A stretch of DNA of 25,031 nt from a virus. The stretch covers positions 1-25,031 of the IMG/VR virus record IMGVR_UViG_3300009154_000258; one strand, 5' to 3'. The translations under genes were made by a program, and so were the position numbers. Each line of letters begins with the position of its first letter. Position 1 is the first letter of the stretch. The notes under the pieces were generated by a model. That model did not search any database. It worked only from the letters and a program-made list of their open reading frames with translations, and was not told where the DNA came from. Below, piece by piece: positions 699 to 20,981 of this stretch.

Positions 699-1496
699 AT
701 GAAGGTTCTAACCACGGCTGAGGCCATTACTATTGCCGCACACGCGCGCGAGGTCGCTGGAGGTTCTAAAGAAACCAGCAAACTTGACGCTTTCGTGCTA
801 CGCGCGATCGGCGTGCCACCACAAGAGGCCACGCTTGCGCACCTTGAGGCGGTTGTCCTGCGGTCGCAACATCGAGGGACTCGCGCCACGTATGCCAAAC
901 GATTGCGTAGCGTGTTTGAACTGCTCAACAAAGTCGGTGCAATTGACAACGACGTGTATTTGCAGCTGCCCAAACTGCGCCACCCGAAATACCTGCCGCG
1001 TCCATTTGCCGACGATCAGGTTGACCGGCTCATGGCTGAACTGCCCGAACCTCATCGCTCAGCCGTCCAGTTCGCCTTATTGACCGGCGCACGGGCGATG
1101 GAGGTTTATGCGTTTGAGGGTCAGCACCTAGTAGGCGGGGCTAACGGCTATGAGGTGCTTTTGCATGGCAAAGGTGGCACGCGGCTAACCGTTCCGGCTC
1201 ACCCGGCGATCATTGAGTTAGTCAATTCGCGTCATACCCTTGGGCCAATCTTTCCGTACCGCAACGCTCATCGAGTGTCGATGGATTGCAGCATTGCGAT
1301 CCAAAAAGTGCTTGGCCCTGGTTACACGTTCCACATGTGCCGGCACACTTTCGGCACTCGGGTCTACAAAGCCTCGGGCAACTCGCTACTTTTGACCCAG
1401 CAACTTCTCAGGCATCAAGACGTTTCAAGCACTCTGGGTTATGTCTTAGTTTCTCAGAATGCGCCACGGGCTGCCGTTGAACTGCTGACGGCTTAA
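699..1496 (+). CDS. int: Tyrosine recombinase (phage integrase), 265 aa
   Basis: This is a tyrosine site-specific recombinase, expected to integrate the phage into the host chromosome and excise it. Residues 1-95 form the SAM-like core-binding part, with the usual RATYAKRLRSV helix. Residues 100-265 are the catalytic domain. Visible catalytic residues are Arg132 (TGARAMEV), Lys158 (HGKGG hairpin), His212 and Arg215 (HMCRH), His239 (LLRHQD) and the Tyr248 nucleophile (STLGYV). It is short because it lacks the N-terminal arm-binding domain seen in lambda-type integrases, so it resembles the simple XerC-like size class. The ATG at 699 is the only start codon in a frame open for about 200 bases upstream. 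It is transcribed against the structural operon and followed 20 bases later by a HIRAN gene. Confidence 0.92.
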   Translation: MKVLTTAEAITIAAHAREVAGGSKETSKLDAFVLRAIGVPPQEATLAHLEAVVLRSQHRGTRATYAKRLRSVFELLNKVGAIDNDVYLQLPKLRHPKYLPRPFADDQVDRLMAELPEPHRSAVQFALLTGARAMEVYAFEGQHLVGGANGYEVLLHGKGGTRLTVPAHPAIIELVNSRHTLGPIFPYRNAHRVSMDCSIAIQKVLGPGYTFHMCRHTFGTRVYKASGNSLLLTQQLLRHQDVSSTLGYVLVSQNAPRAAVELLTA

Positions 1497-3639: not shown

Positions 3640-3759
3640 CTAGAAAATGTCGAACCGATCAGGTTTAGATAGTTGTTTGTAGATTGCGCGGCCGATGAAT
3701 GCGCCGCCGATCGCTAGGCCGGCAAACATGAAGCCAACGGCGATATCGTTAAATTCCAA
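3640..3759 (-). CDS. Small membrane protein, about 39 aa
   Basis: The reading frame ending at 3640 encodes one clear hydrophobic glycine-rich segment (VGFMFAGLAIGGAFIGRAIY) followed by a short polar tail ending in Asp-Arg-Phe-Asp-Ile-Phe. The start is uncertain. A TTG at 3757-3759 overlaps the end of the kinase-nucleotidyltransferase gene by 11 bases; an ATG at 3727-3729 would give only 29 residues. Neither has a convincing Shine-Dalgarno sequence. A longer frame back to 3855 would overlap the upstream gene by over 100 bases and is unlikely. It looks like a single-pass membrane peptide. A contribution to lysis is conceivable given the nearby holin and lysin, but this is inference. Confidence 0.5.
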   Translation of the reverse strand: MEFNDIAVGFMFAGLAIGGAFIGRAIYKQLSKPDRFDIF

Positions 3760-4486
3760 GTTCTTGCCGTTTCTTAGTTGCTGACACTTGGCCGATTTTT
3801 TCCGGCGGTGTGACCTGGTCAATGCAGTAACCAACATCGCGCCCGTACACAACATGAGTGATGTTGGGTAGTTGCATCACCGTTCGACCGGCTGGCATGT
3901 AGTCGCGCAACTCGTCAAACGTCAACGGGTCTTTATCTAGGCCCGTTGTGTTTCGCACTCCCACGACAACGTTGCCGGTGCGTGTGGCTGCTTCCTGATA
4001 TAGCCATTCATGGCCTTCGTGCCACGGCTGGAACCGTCCAAGTACAAGAGCGTGAGGTGCGCGCCAATCCACTAAATTAGTGGCAGAAAACACGGCCTCT
4101 AGTTCCTCATCAACGGTGAGACCGTCAGGGATACGCACGTCATATTCGGTCGGATCAACCCACAGAAGCGACGTGTCTTGGAAGTCACGCACGGGTGCGC
4201 GATCAACCCAAATCAGCACATCAGGTTTACCGAACGCGGCGCGTGTGTCCGGTGTAGGGCAGATGAAATCGACAATGACCGTGACGCCTTGCGCTGACAA
4301 TGTACGCGCAGTCCAACGCATGCGCCGTGCATGTTCGACACGATCAGCGACAGTGAAGCCGAGATCAACGTGTAAGTTTTGGCGCACCTCGTCGGCGTTC
4401 CATACAATGCCATTGACTCGATGTGCCAAGGCGCGGGCAAGTGTTGTCTTGCCCGCACCCGGCAACCCGATAATTTGAATAATCAT
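3749..4486 (-). CDS. Fusion: APS-kinase-like P-loop domain + NMN-adenylyltransferase-like domain
   Basis: Two enzymes are joined in 245 residues. Residues 1-140 are a P-loop kinase close to adenylylsulfate kinase (CysC): Walker A GLPGAGKTT (7-15), then ADEVRQNLHVDLGF and DRVEH (31-52), which follows the CysC pattern D-G-D-N-V-R...D-L-G-F...D-R-x-E-N. Residues 145-245 are a nucleotidyltransferase of the HxGH class, with GRFQPWHEGH (150-159) and a late VSATKKR (234-240) matching the I-S-x-T-x-x-R motif of NadM/NadR-type NMN adenylyltransferases. The joint activity is not known. NAD-related salvage (phosphorylation then adenylylation, as in NadR with domains in the opposite order) is one option, sulfate activation another. 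The gene overlaps the lysin by four bases (ATGA). Confidence 0.82.
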   Translation of the reverse strand: MIIQIIGLPGAGKTTLARALAHRVNGIVWNADEVRQNLHVDLGFTVADRVEHARRMRWTARTLSAQGVTVIVDFICPTPDTRAAFGKPDVLIWVDRAPVRDFQDTSLLWVDPTEYDVRIPDGLTVDEELEAVFSATNLVDWRAPHALVLGRFQPWHEGHEWLYQEAATRTGNVVVGVRNTTGLDKDPLTFDELRDYMPAGRTVMQLPNITHVVYGRDVGYCIDQVTPPEKIGQVSATKKRQELGI

Positions 4487-14498: not shown

Positions 14499-14966
14499 CT
14501 AGATAATTGACGTGGCTTGGATAGTGAAGGGAAGCCGAACTGAGGTGCCGTCGGCGAACTGGTCGATGATGCAGCTGATATCGGTGATCTCTACAGCGAT
14601 GACGTTGGTCAGCCCAAGGCCGTAGTTGGCGCGGATCGCTGACTCGACCCAGCCGAGCACTTCAAACGCGCGCGTGCGGGTCGTTGAGATATCAACATCG
14701 CCGGTCTGACTCATTACGCAACAGTTCAACGTGACGGTTTCGTCGCGCGTTGAGGATGTTCCCGCGAGGTCGTGATACGCCTGCGAGATGCGGCCCGCCT
14801 CGGGTTGTTCAGGGTCGCCGCTATTGCCGATGATGACGAGATCGTCATAGCGTTCCTGTGTGATCGGTAGACCATCAGAAACGGTGAGCGTGGCGAGGTT
14901 GGTATCGGCACGCAACGTGGTCAGAACCGCGTCATACACGGCCGCGAAACGTGACGAGGTTGTCAT
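14499..14966 (-). CDS. Tail terminator protein, 155 aa
   Basis: The sequence has the layout of phage tail terminator (tail completion) proteins: an N-terminal helix (FAAVYDAVLTTLRAD), the strand pair with DGLPITQERYDDLVIIG, the beta segment TRDETVTLNCCVMSQTGD, a long helix RTRAFEVLGWVESAIRAN and a C-terminal strand SVRLPFTIQATSII. The hexameric ring it would form caps the tail tube and contacts the head connector. ATG overlaps the stop of the connector gene by four bases (ATGA). The similarity is to the general fold pattern, not to one protein, and the placement between connector and tube supports it. Confidence 0.72.
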   Translation of the reverse strand: MTTSSRFAAVYDAVLTTLRADTNLATLTVSDGLPITQERYDDLVIIGNSGDPEQPEAGRISQAYHDLAGTSSTRDETVTLNCCVMSQTGDVDISTTRTRAFEVLGWVESAIRANYGLGLTNVIAVEITDISCIIDQFADGTSVRLPFTIQATSII

Positions 14967-15778
14967 GCGAAGCCTGGCACGCTGATTAGGTTGGCAAGTT
15001 CTTGGATTCGGTAGGTCACAATGTTTGAGCCGCCCGGAATGTAATCAGAATCTCCGCTGCCCATCGACATCGGCGAAGCGCCGCGCTGAGTGCGCCACAA
15101 GTGCCGAACAATCTCTTTGATCAGCAACTGTTCAACAGGTGACGGGTCGGTCTTGCCGGCCACATAGTTGACCGTGATGTTGTTCTGACCTGACCGCCAA
15201 AACCGGCGCATTGTCGTATCACCGCGGTAAACAAGGCCAGCGCGATAATTGACGTAAAAGTCAACGTTCTCGGTAAGCGTGACACCGTTCTCAACGAGGC
15301 TGGTGACAGACACGACGGGCTGCTTTATTAGCATGATGCTGTCTTCAGTTGCCGTGTATTTTTCGCTAAACGAATCACGGCGCAGCTTCTGATTTACCAA
15401 AGGTTCAGCGATATCGGTAGCTTCAAGGATGAACTGGCGCAACTCGTCATCGCTAGCCGTGCTTGTGATGTTCAGGTATCGCTTGACGTCGCTGAGGCTG
15501 ACAATAAACGTTTCAGTTGGATCGTTGACTTCAAATGAATCCGTGTACGCGCTGGCATTGCTACCAGTCGCTACCCAACGCACCAGGTGACGGCCTACAA
15601 GCGTTGGCGAATAGTCCACGGTGTACGAGCCAGTGGTGGCGTTAGTAACGCTAGGCGTGGCCGTGGTGCCGTCCGGCAACGTGATCGTGCAGGTTACGGC
15701 CGTGGCATTCGCTGCGGTGCCGGTCGCATCTTTGACAGTGACGGCTAGGCCAACAATGTCGCCGAGGTCGTAGGCCAT
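14963..15778 (-). CDS. Head-tail connector with N-terminal Ig-like domain, 271 aa
   Basis: Residues 93-271 resemble the gp6-like head-tail connector family: the opening LSDVKRYLNITSTASDDEL helix pair, FILEATDIAEPLVNQKL, then beta strands and the later VEQLLIKEIVRHLWR helix. Residues 1-90 are extra: a beta-rich Ig-like/Bacterial-Ig type domain (YDLGDIVGLAVTVKDATG, then TLPDGTTATPSVT, TGSYTVDYSPTLVGRHLVRW). This domain would extend outward from the connector ring. Such Ig additions are known on phage capsid and tail proteins, where they may bind host surface sugars. The ATG is preceded by a gap of three bases from the previous gene. The order connector-terminator-tube agrees with other siphoviruses. 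Confidence 0.75.
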   Translation of the reverse strand: MAYDLGDIVGLAVTVKDATGTAANATAVTCTITLPDGTTATPSVTNATTGSYTVDYSPTLVGRHLVRWVATGSNASAYTDSFEVNDPTETFIVSLSDVKRYLNITSTASDDELRQFILEATDIAEPLVNQKLRRDSFSEKYTATEDSIMLIKQPVVSVTSLVENGVTLTENVDFYVNYRAGLVYRGDTTMRRFWRSGQNNITVNYVAGKTDPSPVEQLLIKEIVRHLWRTQRGASPMSMGSGDSDYIPGGSNIVTYRIQELANLISVPGFA

Positions 15779-15781
15779 TGG

Positions 15782-17122
15782 TCAGGCTCCCGTCATCGTT
15801 GCTGTTGCTTTAGTGGTGGCAGTCATAGACGCGCTTGCCGCTGTGGCGGGCGCTATTGAGGCAGTTGCCTTAGTGGCAGCCAACATCTGCCCTCGACGAT
15901 CGGCGATTACAGCGAGGGTCGCCGTAACCGTCGTGACCGTTACGCCCGTGGCTGAAACCGTGCGCGTTACCGTGACGGTTGCCGCCGTTGACGGGGTGAG
16001 CGCGTAGGCCGCAATGGCGTTGTGCGTGGCTGCGCTTTGCCCGCTACTGCTTGGCGTGATCGTCGTGAATGAATCGGCTAGGACGACCCGAACCGCTGCG
16101 CTTGTCGTCGTTGGCGAAACGGTCACATTGGTGGCGCTGGCCGTAACGACGCGCACGCCAGTAGCGGCCGTGGTTGGGCTAATTGTTAGGGCCGCGTCAA
16201 CTGTCTTGGCGGCGGTCGTCTGTGTGGCTGTGGCGTCACTTGTCGGCGTTGTTGTGACACTTGCCGAGGCTGAGCACGTAGCCGAGCCGCTGGCCGTTGA
16301 GGTTGGGCTAGTAGTAACGGCTGCATCAACGGCCCGCACCACCGTTGCCGAGGCGGCCGGGGTTGGGCTGGTCGTCGTCGCGGCGCTTGCGTTAAATACT
16401 GCGTTGGCGGCTGCGGCCACACTTGGCGAGGTCGTTACGGTCGTGGCTGAGGTAACAGCTGTGCGTAGTGCAGTTGACGCAGTACTCGGCGAATTAGTTA
16501 CGGCATCAGTAGTAGAGGTTTGTGTGGTGCCGCCGCCGCCAGCCGAGTAAGTAACGAAAACGCGAGGGTATTGCGAAAACGTGTTAACTGACGCTGGCAG
16601 ATAGAAGTTTGCGTGCTTATTGGAGTAAGACGCACCCGAAATGTTGTCAGCCGAAACGATGGCAAATTTAATGACGTTGCCAGCAAGATCAGTGTTCAAC
16701 GTTGATGAGCCAGTCATGGCAAAATCGCCAGAACTGCCGTCGGCAATGCTGCCACTTGCATAAGACGACAACGCACTCAATTGTGACGGTGAGCGCCAGT
16801 TGCCTTTGCGTATGGTCGATGAGCCGTCAGTCCAGCCGTACTTGATTGCTGAAATTGATGTTGTGTTCGTTACGCCACCCGCACCAACCGTCAAGTAAAA
16901 CGTTGAAGCCGAAACCGTATTACCTGCCAGCGATGATGCGTCAGCAGTGAAAAATGATTGATTCAAAATTTGTCGTTTGCCGTTGTTGTCACAGCCAACA
17001 TCGAAATTACTTGAACCACTGCTAGTCAAATAATCGGCTAACGAACTCGGCGAACTCCACGACGCAAAACCAACAAGCGAATAACCCGCATTAGTGGTCG
17101 CATAAATTGTTGTCGTACTCAC
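15782..17122 (-). CDS. Ser/Thr/Ala-rich repeat protein, candidate virion-surface fibre, 446 aa
   Basis: Residues 1-193 form a beta-rich domain with strands such as ASTFYLTVGAGG, KFAIVSADNISGA, ANFYLPAS and PRVFVTYSAGGGG. This is the pattern of DNRLRE-like carbohydrate-associated beta-sandwiches, although I cannot prove the family. After a Gly-rich hinge (194-198) the rest is low-complexity Thr, Ser, Ala and Val. From about residue 205 to 380 nine repeats of about 20 residues follow, each with Thr-x-Ser/Thr-Pro, prolines falling at 212, 233, 253, 273, 293, 316, 337, 357 and 377. Two degenerate repeats follow. It lies between capsid and connector genes with a glycosyltransferase nearby. It may be a fibre on the head or neck, possibly glycosylated. 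It overlaps the 90-residue gene by four bases. Confidence 0.75.
   Translation of the reverse strand: MSTTTIYATTNAGYSLVGFASWSSPSSLADYLTSSGSSNFDVGCDNNGKRQILNQSFFTADASSLAGNTVSASTFYLTVGAGGVTNTTSISAIKYGWTDGSSTIRKGNWRSPSQLSALSSYASGSIADGSSGDFAMTGSSTLNTDLAGNVIKFAIVSADNISGASYSNKHANFYLPASVNTFSQYPRVFVTYSAGGGGTTQTSTTDAVTNSPSTASTALRTAVTSATTVTTSPSVAAAANAVFNASAATTTSPTPAASATVVRAVDAAVTTSPTSTASGSATCSASASVTTTPTSDATATQTTAAKTVDAALTISPTTAATGVRVVTASATNVTVSPTTTSAAVRVVLADSFTTITPSSSGQSAATHNAIAAYALTPSTAATVTVTRTVSATGVTVTTVTATLAVIADRRGQMLAATKATASIAPATAASASMTATTKATATMTGA
15985..16510 (-). repeat. Nine ~60-bp degenerate tandem repeats within the Ser/Thr-rich gene
   Basis: The coding repeats of the 446-residue protein have a protein period of 20-23 residues (60-69 bases), read from the spacing of the conserved proline. 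Only the amino-acid pattern is kept (Val-Thr-x-Ser/Thr-Pro-Thr, then Ala-rich); the DNA copies differ, so this is an old duplication and not a slippage-prone exact repeat. A long plus-strand frame of almost only Val, Ala and Leu across the same bases is a by-product of this composition. Confidence 0.7.
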
Positions 17123-17391
17123 AGCACGCCACCGTTGTAGCGCACAGAATCAGCAATTATCAGGTGCGCAGTTTCTAACGGGTCGGGCATTGCCGGAACG
17201 TTCACAAACGTGTACGGCGCATCAACGGCAACAGGATCACCGGCGAACGTGGCAGACACTTGCTCAACGGTCAAAATGTTGTCGTTAGCACTAAACCCGC
17301 CAACAGTCGCCAACACTGAGCCAACGCGGAACGTGTGCGGATCACCAGCGGCATTCAGAGCGTCAGCCATGTTTTGTGCTGCGCTCATCAC
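17119..17391 (-). CDS. Hypothetical structural-region protein, 90 aa
   Basis: I do not recognise this protein. It begins with a short helix (AAQNMADALNAAGDPHTF), followed by a beta-rich part with FRVGSVLATVGGF and a later PYTFVNVPAMPDP loop. There are no membrane segments or metal motifs. The start could be GTG at 17389-17391, whose GTGA overlaps the stop of the TIGR03032-like gene, or the adjacent ATG at 17386-17388, which overlaps that stop by one base. Its end overlaps the next gene (the Ser/Thr-rich protein) by four bases, so the three are tightly coupled. It probably serves the same accessory structure as its neighbours. Confidence 0.6.
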   Translation of the reverse strand: MMSAAQNMADALNAAGDPHTFRVGSVLATVGGFSANDNILTVEQVSATFAGDPVAVDAPYTFVNVPAMPDPLETAHLIIADSVRYNGGVL

Positions 17392-18251
17392 TTCAACCTT
17401 TCGGCCGCCATTTTGATATCGAAAATTTCTTGCACATCCATTGGCACAAACTCAACCTGAGTGCCGGTCGCTAATTCAATGACTGCGATGCCGGGCTGTG
17501 CGAGCGCGTCGGTCGTGATCTCAGGAAACGCAGTCATGCGGCCCTGTGAAATACCAACAAGTAGGTAATCGCCGAGCTGCGTAATACCGCGAGTCCAGCC
17601 CGACAGGGTGGCCACAACGGTGGCCGCAGTATCGTCGGCCGTCCACTTGCATAACTGGCCGTGGCCCGAGTTTGCGAAGTAAACCGAGTCGCCGACGACA
17701 GTGGGCGAATGCGGAAACAGCAAGTTATGCAACACAACCTGATTGGTTTGCACGTCAATCAGTGCGCCACGCTCGGCCTTAGCCTCATCACGCCAACCTT
17801 GTGAAACATCGGAGATGCCCAGCGCGGTGACGTATTTAGGTGCACCGTTAATTGTGGCAACGCCGTTAACCCATGAGCGCGCATCTGACGTTCCAGCGGT
17901 CACGCCTGGCACCGTCCAAATGATTTCATTCACGCCGAAAGCGTGACGAGTCAACGCCGACTGGTATGAGGCGCAGGCGATCACGGAATCATCAGCAGCG
18001 AAACCGATTTCGTGGCTGTCAGTGTTCGGCACGTCGAGGACGGCTACGCGGTTGCCCGTGGCCTTGTTGTAGTAGTACAGGCCAGTATGTGACGCAACAA
18101 CTACGTACTGCTGGCCTATGGCAAGCCCTCGCGCGTTGTCAATGTCAACTGATGACCAAGTGTCGGCTTGATATGAGAAAACCTTGTTTTCAGAATGACT
18201 AGAAACAAGCAGCGCGTTAGAGCCAAGGGCTTGCGACAGAATCGCTCCCAT
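17388..18251 (-). CDS. TIGR03032/DUF4915 family protein, 287 aa
   Basis: The match to the TIGR03032/DUF4915 family is clear across most of the length: HEIGFA at 80-85, then WVNGVA (127-132) where the family has H-L-N-G-x-A, PKYVTALG (138-145), GWR (152-154), LFPHSPTVVGDSVYFANSGHG (178-198; the P-H-S-P and S-G-x-G marks), RGI (221-223) and VGISQGR (232-238). The family is of unknown function and folds like a beta-propeller, being found in bacteria with secreted or tetratricopeptide proteins. Its presence among phage structural genes is unusual. It might be a virion component or an enzyme acting on the neighbouring surface proteins. The Shine-Dalgarno is weak, so it may depend on coupling to the gene ending two bases before. 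Confidence 0.75.
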   Translation of the reverse strand: MGAILSQALGSNALLVSSHSENKVFSYQADTWSSVDIDNARGLAIGQQYVVVASHTGLYYYNKATGNRVAVLDVPNTDSHEIGFAADDSVIACASYQSALTRHAFGVNEIIWTVPGVTAGTSDARSWVNGVATINGAPKYVTALGISDVSQGWRDEAKAERGALIDVQTNQVVLHNLLFPHSPTVVGDSVYFANSGHGQLCKWTADDTAATVVATLSGWTRGITQLGDYLLVGISQGRMTAFPEITTDALAQPGIAVIELATGTQVEFVPMDVQEIFDIKMAAERLK

Positions 18252-18253
18252 GA

Positions 18254-18670
18254 CTAGGAAGCAGGTGTGATAGTCAGCGATGCGCCCGTTACGTTCAACG
18301 TGTCGCTTGTGCTCATGGTTTTGGATGCGGAAAGCGTTGCAGACCAGAGAAAATTGCCGCCCGTTGCAGCGTCAAAAAATGCAACGTGAGCAATGGTTTC
18401 ACCCGTAGCGCCACTAGGCCACGTATCAAAAACGACCGTGCTGGTCAAAGACAACACGCCAGTTGTTGAGGCGCTAAACGTAGCAGCCTTGCGAGTTCCA
18501 TAGCCGGAAACGTTGGACGTGCCAGCACTGCCGGGGCCTAGGTTAGAACCGCCATTAGTGTGAAGTTGCATGTAGATCGCTGAAGGCGCCGTGTACGTCG
18601 TGCCGGCAGCGTTGCCACGAATCACGTTGAGCCACGCATTTGCCAAATATGTGCTAGTGCCGACAGCCAT
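18254..18670 (-). CDS. Tail-fibre-like structural protein, 138 aa
   Basis: This belongs by pattern to the small phage 'tail fibre-like' proteins: a helical start (TYLANAWLNVIRG), then IYMQLHTNGGSNLGPGSAG (the H-T-x-x-x-x-x-G region of the family), VSGYGTRKAATFSAST, and closing strands with HVAFFDAATGGNFLWSATL and DTLNVTGASLTIT. These proteins are often decoration or fibre subunits in actinophages and are frequently found close to the capsid gene. The ATG overlaps the previous small ORF's TGA by one base (TGATG). The placement between capsid and connector, with a glycosyltransferase upstream, suggests a virion-surface component. It is not clear if it belongs to head or tail. Confidence 0.65.
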   Translation of the reverse strand: MAVGTSTYLANAWLNVIRGNAAGTTYTAPSAIYMQLHTNGGSNLGPGSAGTSNVSGYGTRKAATFSASTTGVLSLTSTVVFDTWPSGATGETIAHVAFFDAATGGNFLWSATLSASKTMSTSDTLNVTGASLTITPAS

Positions 18671-18753
18671 CAGGACTCCTCAGTATTTTCGGCTTTGATG
18701 ACCTCTGCATCGGCAGTGGCCTCAATGATGAACGTTGTTGTTTCAGGATTCAT
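18670..18753 (-). CDS. Small ORF of 27 aa coupling two structural genes
   Basis: An ATG at 18751-18753 with GAGGG about six bases upstream opens a 27-codon frame that starts inside the last 11 bases of the glycosyltransferase gene and ends by overlapping the next ATG with a TGATG. The peptide is acidic, with few hydrophobic residues (F-I-I-E near residue 8, then acidic to the end). The good ribosome site and exact fit in the gap suggest it is translated. It may act mainly to couple translation. No family is recognised, and a leader or spacer is an equally good explanation. Confidence 0.45.
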   Translation of the reverse strand: MNPETTTFIIEATADAEVIKAENTEES

Positions 18754-19477
18754 TAGTGCCCTCTTCAATCGTGGCTTCAGCGGCCCGCATGGCCAACTGG
18801 AATGAACGCTGCGACCGGTACATGTCAGCGGTCAAGACGTAAGACTTTTGATGACCAACCGAGATGCCGGTATGGACAAACACAGGGAAGCCGAGCTGAC
18901 CGGCTCGCAACATAAACGTCATGTCTTCCGATACGCGCGAGCCACGAATCTCGCCCTCTTGGAACCACGGGTAAGCGTGTGAAAACTCTTTATCAGCAAT
19001 GGCGCGCAACACGCGGCGATGAATCAGCACACATGCAGCACCAGTGCCAACAACCTGGAACATTTCATTCTCAGGAAAATCTAGGAAACGGATCGTCTGC
19101 GGCCCGCCGTCCTCTTCAACCATTGAATACAAGGTTGGGAACAGTTCGCCGTCAGATACGCCAAATGCAAGAGCGCCCACGATCGGCGCAGTCTCAGCGT
19201 CAGCGGCTTCAACGAGTTGCTCAACGATGAACCGATCAAAGGTCATATCGGCATCGAGCATAAGCAGCCATTCAGCATCGCCGGCGAGAAACTGCTCAAC
19301 GATCTCGTTGCGGCCTGAAGAGATGTTCACACCCGAATAGACCGGCAGCAACGTGCGCAAATGCGCACCGGCCGTTAACTCGTGAGCGATCAAACCCGCT
19401 AGTGAATTGCAGAAACCTGATGCAACTTCTTGGCCGTAGCAATAGCCCACGGCAACAGTGTCTTTAACGATCTGCAT
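18743..19477 (-). CDS. GT-A fold glycosyltransferase, 244 aa
   Basis: A GT2-like glycosyltransferase of the GT-A fold. The nucleotide-sugar and metal site is LMLDADMTF (DAD at 75-77). Family features that follow are VGTGAACVLIHRRVL (143-157), the acceptor/catalytic SEDMTFMLRAGQLG (183-196; Glu184 and Asp185) and VHTGISVGH (201-209). There are no membrane segments, so it acts in the cytoplasm, presumably on a phage protein. The gene lies between the major capsid gene and a set of structural genes that includes a Ser/Thr-rich repeat protein. Phage glycosyltransferases that modify virion proteins or DNA are known; which this is cannot be decided here. ATG with AGGGG upstream, 79 bases after the capsid stop. 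Confidence 0.82.
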   Translation of the reverse strand: MQIVKDTVAVGYCYGQEVASGFCNSLAGLIAHELTAGAHLRTLLPVYSGVNISSGRNEIVEQFLAGDAEWLLMLDADMTFDRFIVEQLVEAADAETAPIVGALAFGVSDGELFPTLYSMVEEDGGPQTIRFLDFPENEMFQVVGTGAACVLIHRRVLRAIADKEFSHAYPWFQEGEIRGSRVSEDMTFMLRAGQLGFPVFVHTGISVGHQKSYVLTADMYRSQRSFQLAMRAAEATIEEGTNES

Positions 19478-19507
19478 GCGCCCCTACCTTTTTGAATTGT
19501 CAACAGA

Positions 19508-19547
19508 ACTCGTTGAGGGCCGACCAGGTGGCCGACCCTCAACGAGT
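19508..19547 (-). terminator. Large hairpin after the major capsid gene
   Basis: The 18-base arms (19508-19525 and 19530-19547) pair over the whole length, with two G-U or mismatch positions, around a 4-base loop. The conserved core is CGTTGAGGG/CCCTCAACG. It lies right after the capsid stop (19557-19559). There is no clear T-run after it on the minus strand, so it may be a partial terminator, an RNA stability element or an RNase site that sets capsid level above downstream genes. Classified as terminator with reservation. Confidence 0.55.
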
Positions 19548-19556
19548 GTGAATCTG

Positions 19557-20981
19557 CTAGAGCTTGAGAACGCGGAAGGCGCCAGGCACCAGAGCATCCG
19601 CGCCAACGCGCCAGTTAAAGAACCATCCACGCTGACCCAACGGGCGACCCGAGGTGGTGTCAAACGTGTTAGGGATGTACTCCATCGTTGACCCGATGCG
19701 GTCGAAGATGAGGTACTGCGAGAAGTCACCGGCAAGCAGGATGTTGCTGCCCGTGGTGATGGTTGACGCCATTGAGTACGCCTCGTACTGGGGGCGACCC
19801 AACAACTCGTTCGGCTGGTTTGCTCCGAGGTTTGCCCAGAACGAAGAGCCGCCGTACTGATCCATGCGGCGAATAATGCCGTAGGTTGAGTAGTTTGCAA
19901 TCCACGAGGACTTGCTACGGAAGCGCGGCGGCACGGCCTCAATCACGGCGTCAACGTCGGCGCGTGAAGCGGTCGTGAACGTTCCACCCGTGGTGGGCGA
20001 AACACGCGACGTGGTGACAGCGGTGACCGCAGTCACGATGCCCTTGGGCTGGCTTGAACCAGAACCCGTGGCGAACGCTGCATCTTCCAAACGATCCTTC
20101 GCATCAGTAAAGAGGGCCGGCAACGAGTTAGCAAGCGCGGTATCTTCCAAGATTTCAAACGATGCTGCAACGAAAGCGTCAGCAAGGTAAGCGGTGATGG
20201 AAGGCTGAGCGAGAGTCGGCGAAGCGTCGGCAGCGGCCGCGTTTTCCGTCTTCCATTCGGCAGACACACCAGCAGATGAAATGCCGTTCCACTTGTTCGA
20301 CACACCAGTCTCAATCCGGCTGATCTGACGGAACGGGTTAGCAGCACCCGAGTTGCTTAAGATGACCGTTGGGTCAAGCAGGAACGGGATCGCGTAACCA
20401 CCATTGGCGGCAGTGGTTGACAAGGCAGCACGGAAAGCGGCAGCCTCTTCAGGCTCCAACATTGAGTGGAAGTCCATCGGGTACTGCATGACCTTGAGGA
20501 ATGCACGATGGTAGGCCGGTGAGCCAGTGAGAAGCGCGTGACGAGCAACCTCAGTGGGAGTCGTTACGTGAACTTCAGCATTGTTCTCAATGAGGCGGGT
20601 GGCGCGCTCTTGCCAGTCACTGACGTAGCCGGTGGCTGATTCAATCGCCGTGAGGGCACGAGCTGAAACTTCAGCCGCATCCATACGGTTGACAACACCA
20701 GGCTCAACACCTTCAAACGGGCTGCGCTTGATGATGACCTCGGGAGCGCCGAAGCCTGATTCGCGGTTTGCAGGATCAGCAGCGGCGGTACGAATTGCCG
20801 TCGCCTTCTCCTCTAATTCGCGCGCGGTGGCCAAGCTGGTCACGGCCGCGTCATACTCGGCAACGATCTCAGTTGATCGGGTTGCCTGCTCGTCACTGGG
20901 CGACTCGATGTCGGCCAGCGCGAGCATTTCGGTGCGGAGCGCATCGACGTTAGCCGACAACTCCTCAACACGCTTGCTCAT
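19557..20981 (-). CDS. Major capsid protein, HK97 fold, 474 aa
   Basis: The position directly after the prohead protease and the sequence pattern identify the HK97-fold capsid protein. Residues 1-65 are a charged coiled-coil delta domain (MSKRVEELSANVDALRTEML...). Residues around 165-185 (MQYPMDFHSMLEPEEAAAF) and the later GGYAIPFLLDPTVI, ASFEILEDTA, FATGSGSSQPKGIV, SSWIANYSTYGIIR and LLAGDFSQYLIFDR are typical of the mature shell part. The N-terminal portion should be removed by the protease; the cleavage point cannot be fixed from sequence alone. ATG overlaps the protease stop by four bases and has a strong AGAGGA site. A hairpin follows the stop. Confidence 0.93.
   Translation of the reverse strand: MSKRVEELSANVDALRTEMLALADIESPSDEQATRSTEIVAEYDAAVTSLATARELEEKATAIRTAAADPANRESGFGAPEVIIKRSPFEGVEPGVVNRMDAAEVSARALTAIESATGYVSDWQERATRLIENNAEVHVTTPTEVARHALLTGSPAYHRAFLKVMQYPMDFHSMLEPEEAAAFRAALSTTAANGGYAIPFLLDPTVILSNSGAANPFRQISRIETGVSNKWNGISSAGVSAEWKTENAAAADASPTLAQPSITAYLADAFVAASFEILEDTALANSLPALFTDAKDRLEDAAFATGSGSSQPKGIVTAVTAVTTSRVSPTTGGTFTTASRADVDAVIEAVPPRFRSKSSWIANYSTYGIIRRMDQYGGSSFWANLGANQPNELLGRPQYEAYSMASTITTGSNILLAGDFSQYLIFDRIGSTMEYIPNTFDTTSGRPLGQRGWFFNWRVGADALVPGAFRVLKL

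Follow-up and report, generated by a model that had tools for sequence, protein, structure and literature searches.

A freshwater phage block between capsid and connector probably joins a capsid-linked glycosyltransferase to a portable accessory-fibre cassette

The window analysed here is a 25,031-base IMG/VR virus record of a freshwater phage (IMGVR_UViG_3300009154_000258) whose late genes lie on the − strand: terminase, portal, protease, major capsid protein (MCP), an accessory block, head–tail adaptor, tail genes and lysis genes. We examined the accessory block, which is bordered by the MCP gene and the head–tail adaptor (connector) gene, and conclude that it probably consists of two units: a glycosyltransferase (GT) tied to the capsid gene, and an independent, portable cassette for an accessory fibre that includes a beta-propeller helper.

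A preliminary description of this DNA had placed five tightly coupled genes between capsid and connector and proposed that they jointly build and glycosylate a virion-surface structure. The placement, the coupling and the gene identities all hold: the GT, fibre-like, TIGR03032, 90-residue and repeat-protein genes are open reading frames (ORFs) on the − strand at the positions given for them, the described overlaps and 27-codon ORF can all be seen, and profile searches agree with the GT, fibre-like and TIGR03032 assignments. The proposed function fares differently. A virion-surface structure is still the best reading, as the fibre genes recur as a set and belong by homology to a virion fibre family, but the GT does not go with them, and the 27-codon ORF, described as a coupler, is rather a conserved gene. 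The features of the block and its borders are as follows.

19557..20981, − strand: MCP, HK97 type (PF05065, E 1e-37; phrog_10, E 4e-37)
19478..19556, − strand: highly stable stem-loop in the MCP–GT intergenic stretch (−37.5 kcal/mol, z −5.2)
18743..19477, − strand: GT-A-like glycosyltransferase (phrog_34859 'glycosyltransferase', E 8e-22; DAD and ED motifs conserved)
18670..18753, − strand: conserved 27-residue microprotein, MNPETTTFIIEATADAEVIKAENTEES, whose stop codon shares 1 nt with the start codon that follows (TGATG)
18254..18670, − strand: Gp80-family fibre protein, the family of Ralstonia phage GP4 fibre I (PF23140; PDB 8jou_a)
17388..18251, − strand: TIGR03032/DUF4915 protein of 287 residues, predicted six-bladed-type beta-propeller (PF16261, E 1e-43)
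17119..17391, − strand: 90-residue protein p90, accompanying TIGR03032 and the fibre; conserved start probably the ATG at 17388
16526..17122, − strand: fibre N-terminal domain, residues 1–199, swapped between relatives
15782..16525, − strand: fibre Thr/Ala/Ser repeat region with a conserved C-terminal RRGxM...TMTGA end
14963..15778, − strand: head–tail adaptor with an N-terminal Ig/filamin-like domain (phrog_442, E 4e-25), the downstream border of the cassette

The glycosyltransferase accompanies the capsid gene

The GT is a companion of the capsid gene and a unit separate from the fibre cassette. An automatic rule finds MCP just upstream of the GT in 75 of the 91 informative IMG/VR contigs that carry this GT, a count that rises to about 81 when the window and five contigs judged by eye (L011, L024, L157, L164 and L021; L numbers denote the loci compared) are added. 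The GT follows MCP whether fibre genes are present or not, and in five contigs (L003, L004, L007, L151 and L165) it abuts the connector gene, with no fibre gene between. Pairwise divergence of the GT also tracks that of MCP (Mantel r 0.76, n = 81; 0.73–0.80 on non-redundant subsets, p 0.005), more closely than MCP tracks portal (r 0.63) or connector (r 0.47). With the Gp80-like fibre protein the correlation is r 0.17 (p 0.14, n = 14), against r 0.73 for GT and MCP; both values come from the same 14 loci. The contigs had been gathered by GT or Gp80 similarity, which restricts their ranges.

Individual genomes separate the two units further. In L003 and L004, a 28%-identical GT remains between capsid and connector while the cassette lies in the tail region. 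L024 and L025 share a cassette (Gp80 99% and fibre 94% identical), but their MCPs are only 25% identical; L024 has the GT, whereas L025 has a small unrelated ORF at that site, on a contig of 4.4 kb that leaves room for a GT elsewhere in its genome.

The match to phrog_34859 runs the full length of the profile (residues 4–227) and includes the GT-A motifs DxD and ED, with D75, D77, D185, H209 and K211 invariant, though the score against Pfam glycosyltransferase family 2 (PF00535) is 16.2 bits, below the cutoff of 23.3. The most likely target of the enzyme is the capsid or another head protein. Hairpins like the one at 19478..19556 in strength occur at the MCP–GT junction of L002, L005, L007, L008 and L073; given this strength and recurrence in five related phages, attenuation of GT expression, or processing of the transcript, is probable at this point. 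In three contigs (L105, L121 and L130), GT genes of this family occur as a tandem pair.

A fibre cassette found at two genomic positions

After the GT come, in order, the 27-residue microprotein, the Gp80-like protein, the TIGR03032 protein, p90 and the Thr/Ala/Ser-repeat fibre. This cassette takes the head position, between GT and connector, in the window, L001 and L002; in L003 and L004, Gp80, TIGR03032, p90 and fibre lie instead between the tape-measure and tail-tip genes. The cassettes of L002 (head position) and L004 (tail position) are nearly identical (Gp80 97%, TIGR03032 96%, p90 97%), yet their connectors share merely 39% identity, which points to a recent move between lineages and positions. 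The cassette can thus occupy the head–neck or the tail region of unrelated phages.

Its membership varies. Gp80, TIGR03032, p90 and fibre recur in L268, with TIGR03032 about 53% identical. L267 keeps TIGR03032, p90 and fibre without Gp80, near head genes, and L024 and L025 have the same kind of fibre without TIGR03032; the steadiest association is therefore that of TIGR03032, p90 and fibre. Relatives of p90 are found in L002, L003, L004, L267 and L268, with a weak one in L024.

In many other phages the gap between GT and connector holds different fibre-like genes. L073 and others have Gp80 there, accompanied by a protein of 94 residues and a repeat fibre of 431; L010 has a beta-helix-like protein. 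In L005 (6430–7221), whose MCP and GT are 87–89% identical to those of the window, the cassette is replaced by a coiled fibre rich in Ser, Ala and Thr together with a protein of 130 residues, starting with a 4-nt overlap with the GT. The gap is therefore a swap site for surface proteins.

The fibre itself is built from parts of contrasting conservation. Against L002, its N-terminal domain is 29.5% identical and its repeat region 80.2%, a pattern that fits a stalk bearing an exchangeable recognition domain, which is how we read this protein. The repeat region (27% Thr, 25% Ala, 13% Ser) has an amino-acid autocorrelation at a lag of 20 residues (z 4.4). Profile searches give no family match for p90 or the 446-residue repeat protein, Pfam has none for the repeat proteins, and no relatives of the repeat protein appear among annotated phages.

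The fibril protein and its coupled microprotein

The Gp80-like protein matches PF23140 ('GP4 fibre I gp80') over its full length (90.7 bits, cutoff 27; E 1e-25) and the GP4 fibre structure 8jou_a (E 3e-10); this match is to chain a, whereas a cited paper names chain g. Mass spectrometry of purified virions of phage JC1 detected gp53 (139 amino acids) and gp55 (PMC9144972). Since gp53 has the right size, occupies the position of the Gp80 homologue in BcepIL02 and lies next to the Gp77-like gp55, itself 90% identical to BcepIL02 gp57, we take it as the Gp80 homologue. Together with the 8JOU match, these virion data place the Gp80 family on the particle. PHROGs and RefSeq call the family 'head protein' (for example L020 16001–16387; phrog_240). 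This label is probably a misannotation in many mycobacteriophage records, because the Faith1 homologue lies among minor tail genes and the GP4 homologue is a fibre.

An ORF whose stop lies at most 4 nt from the Gp80 start is present in 75 of 84 Gp80 loci, and in 71 of the 84 it carries a common core, [DESTA][AM][ETDV][VI][ITVH] (typically ITADAEVIKA...EE). The motif was picked after the alignment had been seen, and control genes were scored identically: MCP, GT, connector, portal, MTP and other large genes of the same contigs yielded 2 hits in about 900. Differences at the three codon positions (0.29, 0.26 and 0.52) are in excess at the third, indicating constraint at the protein level. The microprotein has no family in Pfam or PHROGs and appears to represent an undescribed one. 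A coupled microprotein was not seen in the Faith1 group, and tblastn against annotated phages gave no match with a query that is probably too short. The idea that it represents one isolated repeat of the fibre encoded downstream was dropped, as there was no significant profile match to the fibres. The translational coupling suggests that synthesis of the microprotein keeps pace with that of the fibril protein, whose assembly it may assist. As a family it is a marker of Gp80-type fibre genes, and fibre assembly may require it.

A TIGR03032 propeller beside repeat-rich surface proteins

The third cassette protein scores 149.8 bits against DUF4915 (PF16261; cutoff 35) and 143.3 bits, over profile positions 103–312, against the TIGR03032 NCBIfam equivalog, whose cutoff is 251.5; on its sequence it is thus a family-like member rather than a strict equivalog. 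Its AlphaFold2 model (pLDDT 93.3, pTM 0.92) has nidogen 1npe as its best VIA-align match (Z 25.8, rmsd 2.4 over 233 residues), and the fold is confidently predicted as a beta-propeller of six-bladed type, closest to YWTD propellers. Most core residues are shared with bacterial relatives (H80, R125, N129, D148, W153, H181, R221, R238 and E275 in phage numbering). It is the most conserved cassette member (90–92% identity, dN/dS 0.08), while Gp80, p90 and the fibre N terminus diverge.

In bacteria, the family has a characteristic neighbourhood. A large repeat-rich ORF (at least 600 residues and at least 33% Gly + Ser + Thr + Asn, within 3 kb) is found at 44 of 80 bacterial TIGR03032 loci (L178–L257), a figure inflated by shared synteny because loci were sampled in order of their similarity to a single Novosphingobium protein. 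Coverage by such ORFs is 0.43 at −2.5 kb and 0.03–0.06 at 8.5–9.5 kb. A large surface-type neighbour occurs in all seven plasmid contexts examined; on plasmids of Alpha- and Betaproteobacteria, Planctomycetes and Cyanobacteria the neighbours carry annotations as autotransporter, choice-of-anchor, cadherin-like/RTX or IPTL-CTERM proteins. At the viral locus L265, TIGR03032 is flanked by two giant collagen-like fibres. From these neighbourhoods we infer that TIGR03032 proteins work in support of repeat-rich surface proteins, perhaps by folding, capping, exporting or modifying them, a first functional lead for a domain of unknown function in bacteria and phages. DUF4915/TIGR03032, and a link between it and giant repeat-rich neighbours, were absent from the literature searched.

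Among annotated phages no relatives of this protein were found, and a genome-contig scan with the phage propeller alone as query gave no match. A general link to GT41/OGT or sulfotransferases was considered and set aside as a minor association: GT41 occurs in three loci and sulfotransferases in few, and most members are neither fused nor adjacent to the acetyl-, glycosyl- (GT9, GT41) or sulfotransferase-type proteins that accompany a few. In L262 (2066–3713), TIGR03032 adjoins glycine-rich proteins; the same virus has a packaging-ATPase-like gene, and no tail genes were recognized in the stretch read. L188, titled 'Actinobacteria bacterium', holds a sphingomonad-like TIGR03032 with an autotransporter-like gene and is probably a case of binning contamination.

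Proposed roles and alternative explanations

In the reading that we favour, the Gp80-like protein would form a neck- or tail-located fibril of the virion, by analogy with its GP4 homologue. The repeat protein would be the outer part of the fibre, its long Thr/Ala/Ser stalk presenting the exchangeable N-terminal domain, and through such accessory fibres the phage would gain an additional, reversible hold on the host surface. The propeller, with p90, would bind the repeat protein and aid its folding, assembly or modification, a helper role suggested because the bacterial relatives adjoin giant surface proteins. The GT would act elsewhere, most likely on the capsid or another head protein. Several points weigh against this account besides the skewed bacterial sample: the presence of cassette proteins in the particles of this phage is something that we infer; the Cys-His that bacterial members have in their DRCHLNG motif is lost in the phage propeller, which makes an enzymatic role doubtful; the repeat protein gave an AlphaFold model (pLDDT 37) too poor to be used; and the Gp77 fibre–tail adaptor (PF23148), a companion in the GP4-type module, was not found. 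Beyond this block, we suggest only tentatively that TIGR03032/DUF4915 proteins are general partners of long repeat-rich surface fibres, serving giant autotransporter-like proteins in bacteria and captured by phages in a mobile cassette, and that most Gp80-type fibrils are made with a coupled microprotein needed for their assembly.

The original proposal, that the GT O-glycosylates the Thr/Ser-rich protein so that the whole block forms one glycosylated structure altering attachment or shielding the virion, can draw on the adjacency of GT and fibre genes, on intact GT motifs, on a repeat region that is 40% Thr + Ser, on the few TIGR03032 relatives joined to GT9-, GT41- or sulfotransferase-type proteins, and on mycobacteriophage virions, which are known to be glycosylated according to work cited in PMC11256854. 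We nevertheless regard it as improbable: the GT diverges with MCP rather than Gp80 across the same 14 loci, stays at the capsid in L003 and L004 when the cassette lies elsewhere, is missing from its site in L025 next to an unrelated capsid and a fibre nearly the same as that of L024, and in five contigs abuts the connector. That single guess gives way to units that can be tested, one being the GT, which goes with the capsid, and the other a mobile fibre cassette.

A closer competitor makes the propeller a structural, host-binding part of the fibre. YWTD-type propellers (nidogen, LRP and LDLR, the top VIA-align matches) are protein-binding modules, the gene sits within the fibre operon, and TIGR03032 has no known enzyme signature. 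This is still unlikely, as strong conservation is unlike that of a surface-exposed binder, L024 and L025 make do without the propeller, and the bacterial homologues are separate proteins beside large surface proteins, not parts of them. Least credible of all is action on the infected or lysogenic host cell, outside the virion, as a surface protein of lysogenic conversion. An integrase-like ORF at 699–1496 (+) makes a temperate phage plausible and bacterial TIGR03032 neighbours are of cell-surface type, but the cassette shares its strand with the structural genes, being placed within the head operon and coupled to late genes; Gp80-family proteins are associated with virions; and other phages carry the cassette among tail genes.

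Relation to known systems

The cassette is of a known kind, the Gp80/GP4-type accessory fibre; what is new are the added elements. As in GP4 (fibre I, gp80, PDB 8JOU), the Burkholderia phage BcepIL02 and the Ochrobactrum phage POI1126, a Gp80-family protein is followed by a repeat protein, a protein of about 90 residues and fibre genes. To this the window adds the TIGR03032 propeller and the coupled microprotein; moreover, GP4 is a Ralstonia podophage, whereas the window phage has siphovirus-type tail genes and a different fibre protein. At the TIGR03032 position of a similar gene order, BcepIL02 has gp56 and POI1126 has gp16; these were considered as propellers but are repeat proteins without a TIGR03032 profile match. 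The small protein of those phages is the Gp77 fibre–tail adaptor, which p90 is not: hhalign gave E 0.36, and Pfam no Gp77 match for p90 or a p90 relative. The Ig/filamin-like domain of the head–tail adaptor (PF00630, E 3e-5, just below the cutoff), present in all nine adaptors aligned, was likewise rejected as a hidden Gp77 (hhalign E 0.08, probability below 1%).

A second parallel is the Alishewanella siphophage LSH1, in which gp34–36 form a co-inherited three-gene module with an 8JOU-like protein (PMC13243795). It too is an optional set, with an adhesin-like protein whose repeat part is ill predicted, an 8JOU-like fibril and a small protein; it differs in the beta-helix lyase-like domain of the adhesin, in its position downstream of the lysis genes and in having no TIGR03032 described. 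Bacterial TIGR03032/DUF4915 proteins share with the phage copy the Pfam family, the propeller core residues and a large repeat-rich neighbour, whereas the phage copy is shorter, falls below the NCBIfam cutoff and has lost the DRCHLNG Cys-His. Virion glycans have been demonstrated for the mycobacteriophage Che8 and its relatives (Freeman et al. 2023, cited in PMC11256854). Mycobacteriophage glycosylation resembles the present case in its phage-encoded glycosyltransferase and probable head-protein acceptor; in Maravista, the GT genes are located close to the 3′ end of the genome, whereas that of the window directly follows the capsid gene.

Other genes of the window

The integrase-like gene lies on the strand opposite to the late genes. 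At 3749–4486 (−), a putative kinase is joined to a NadR-like adenylyltransferase.

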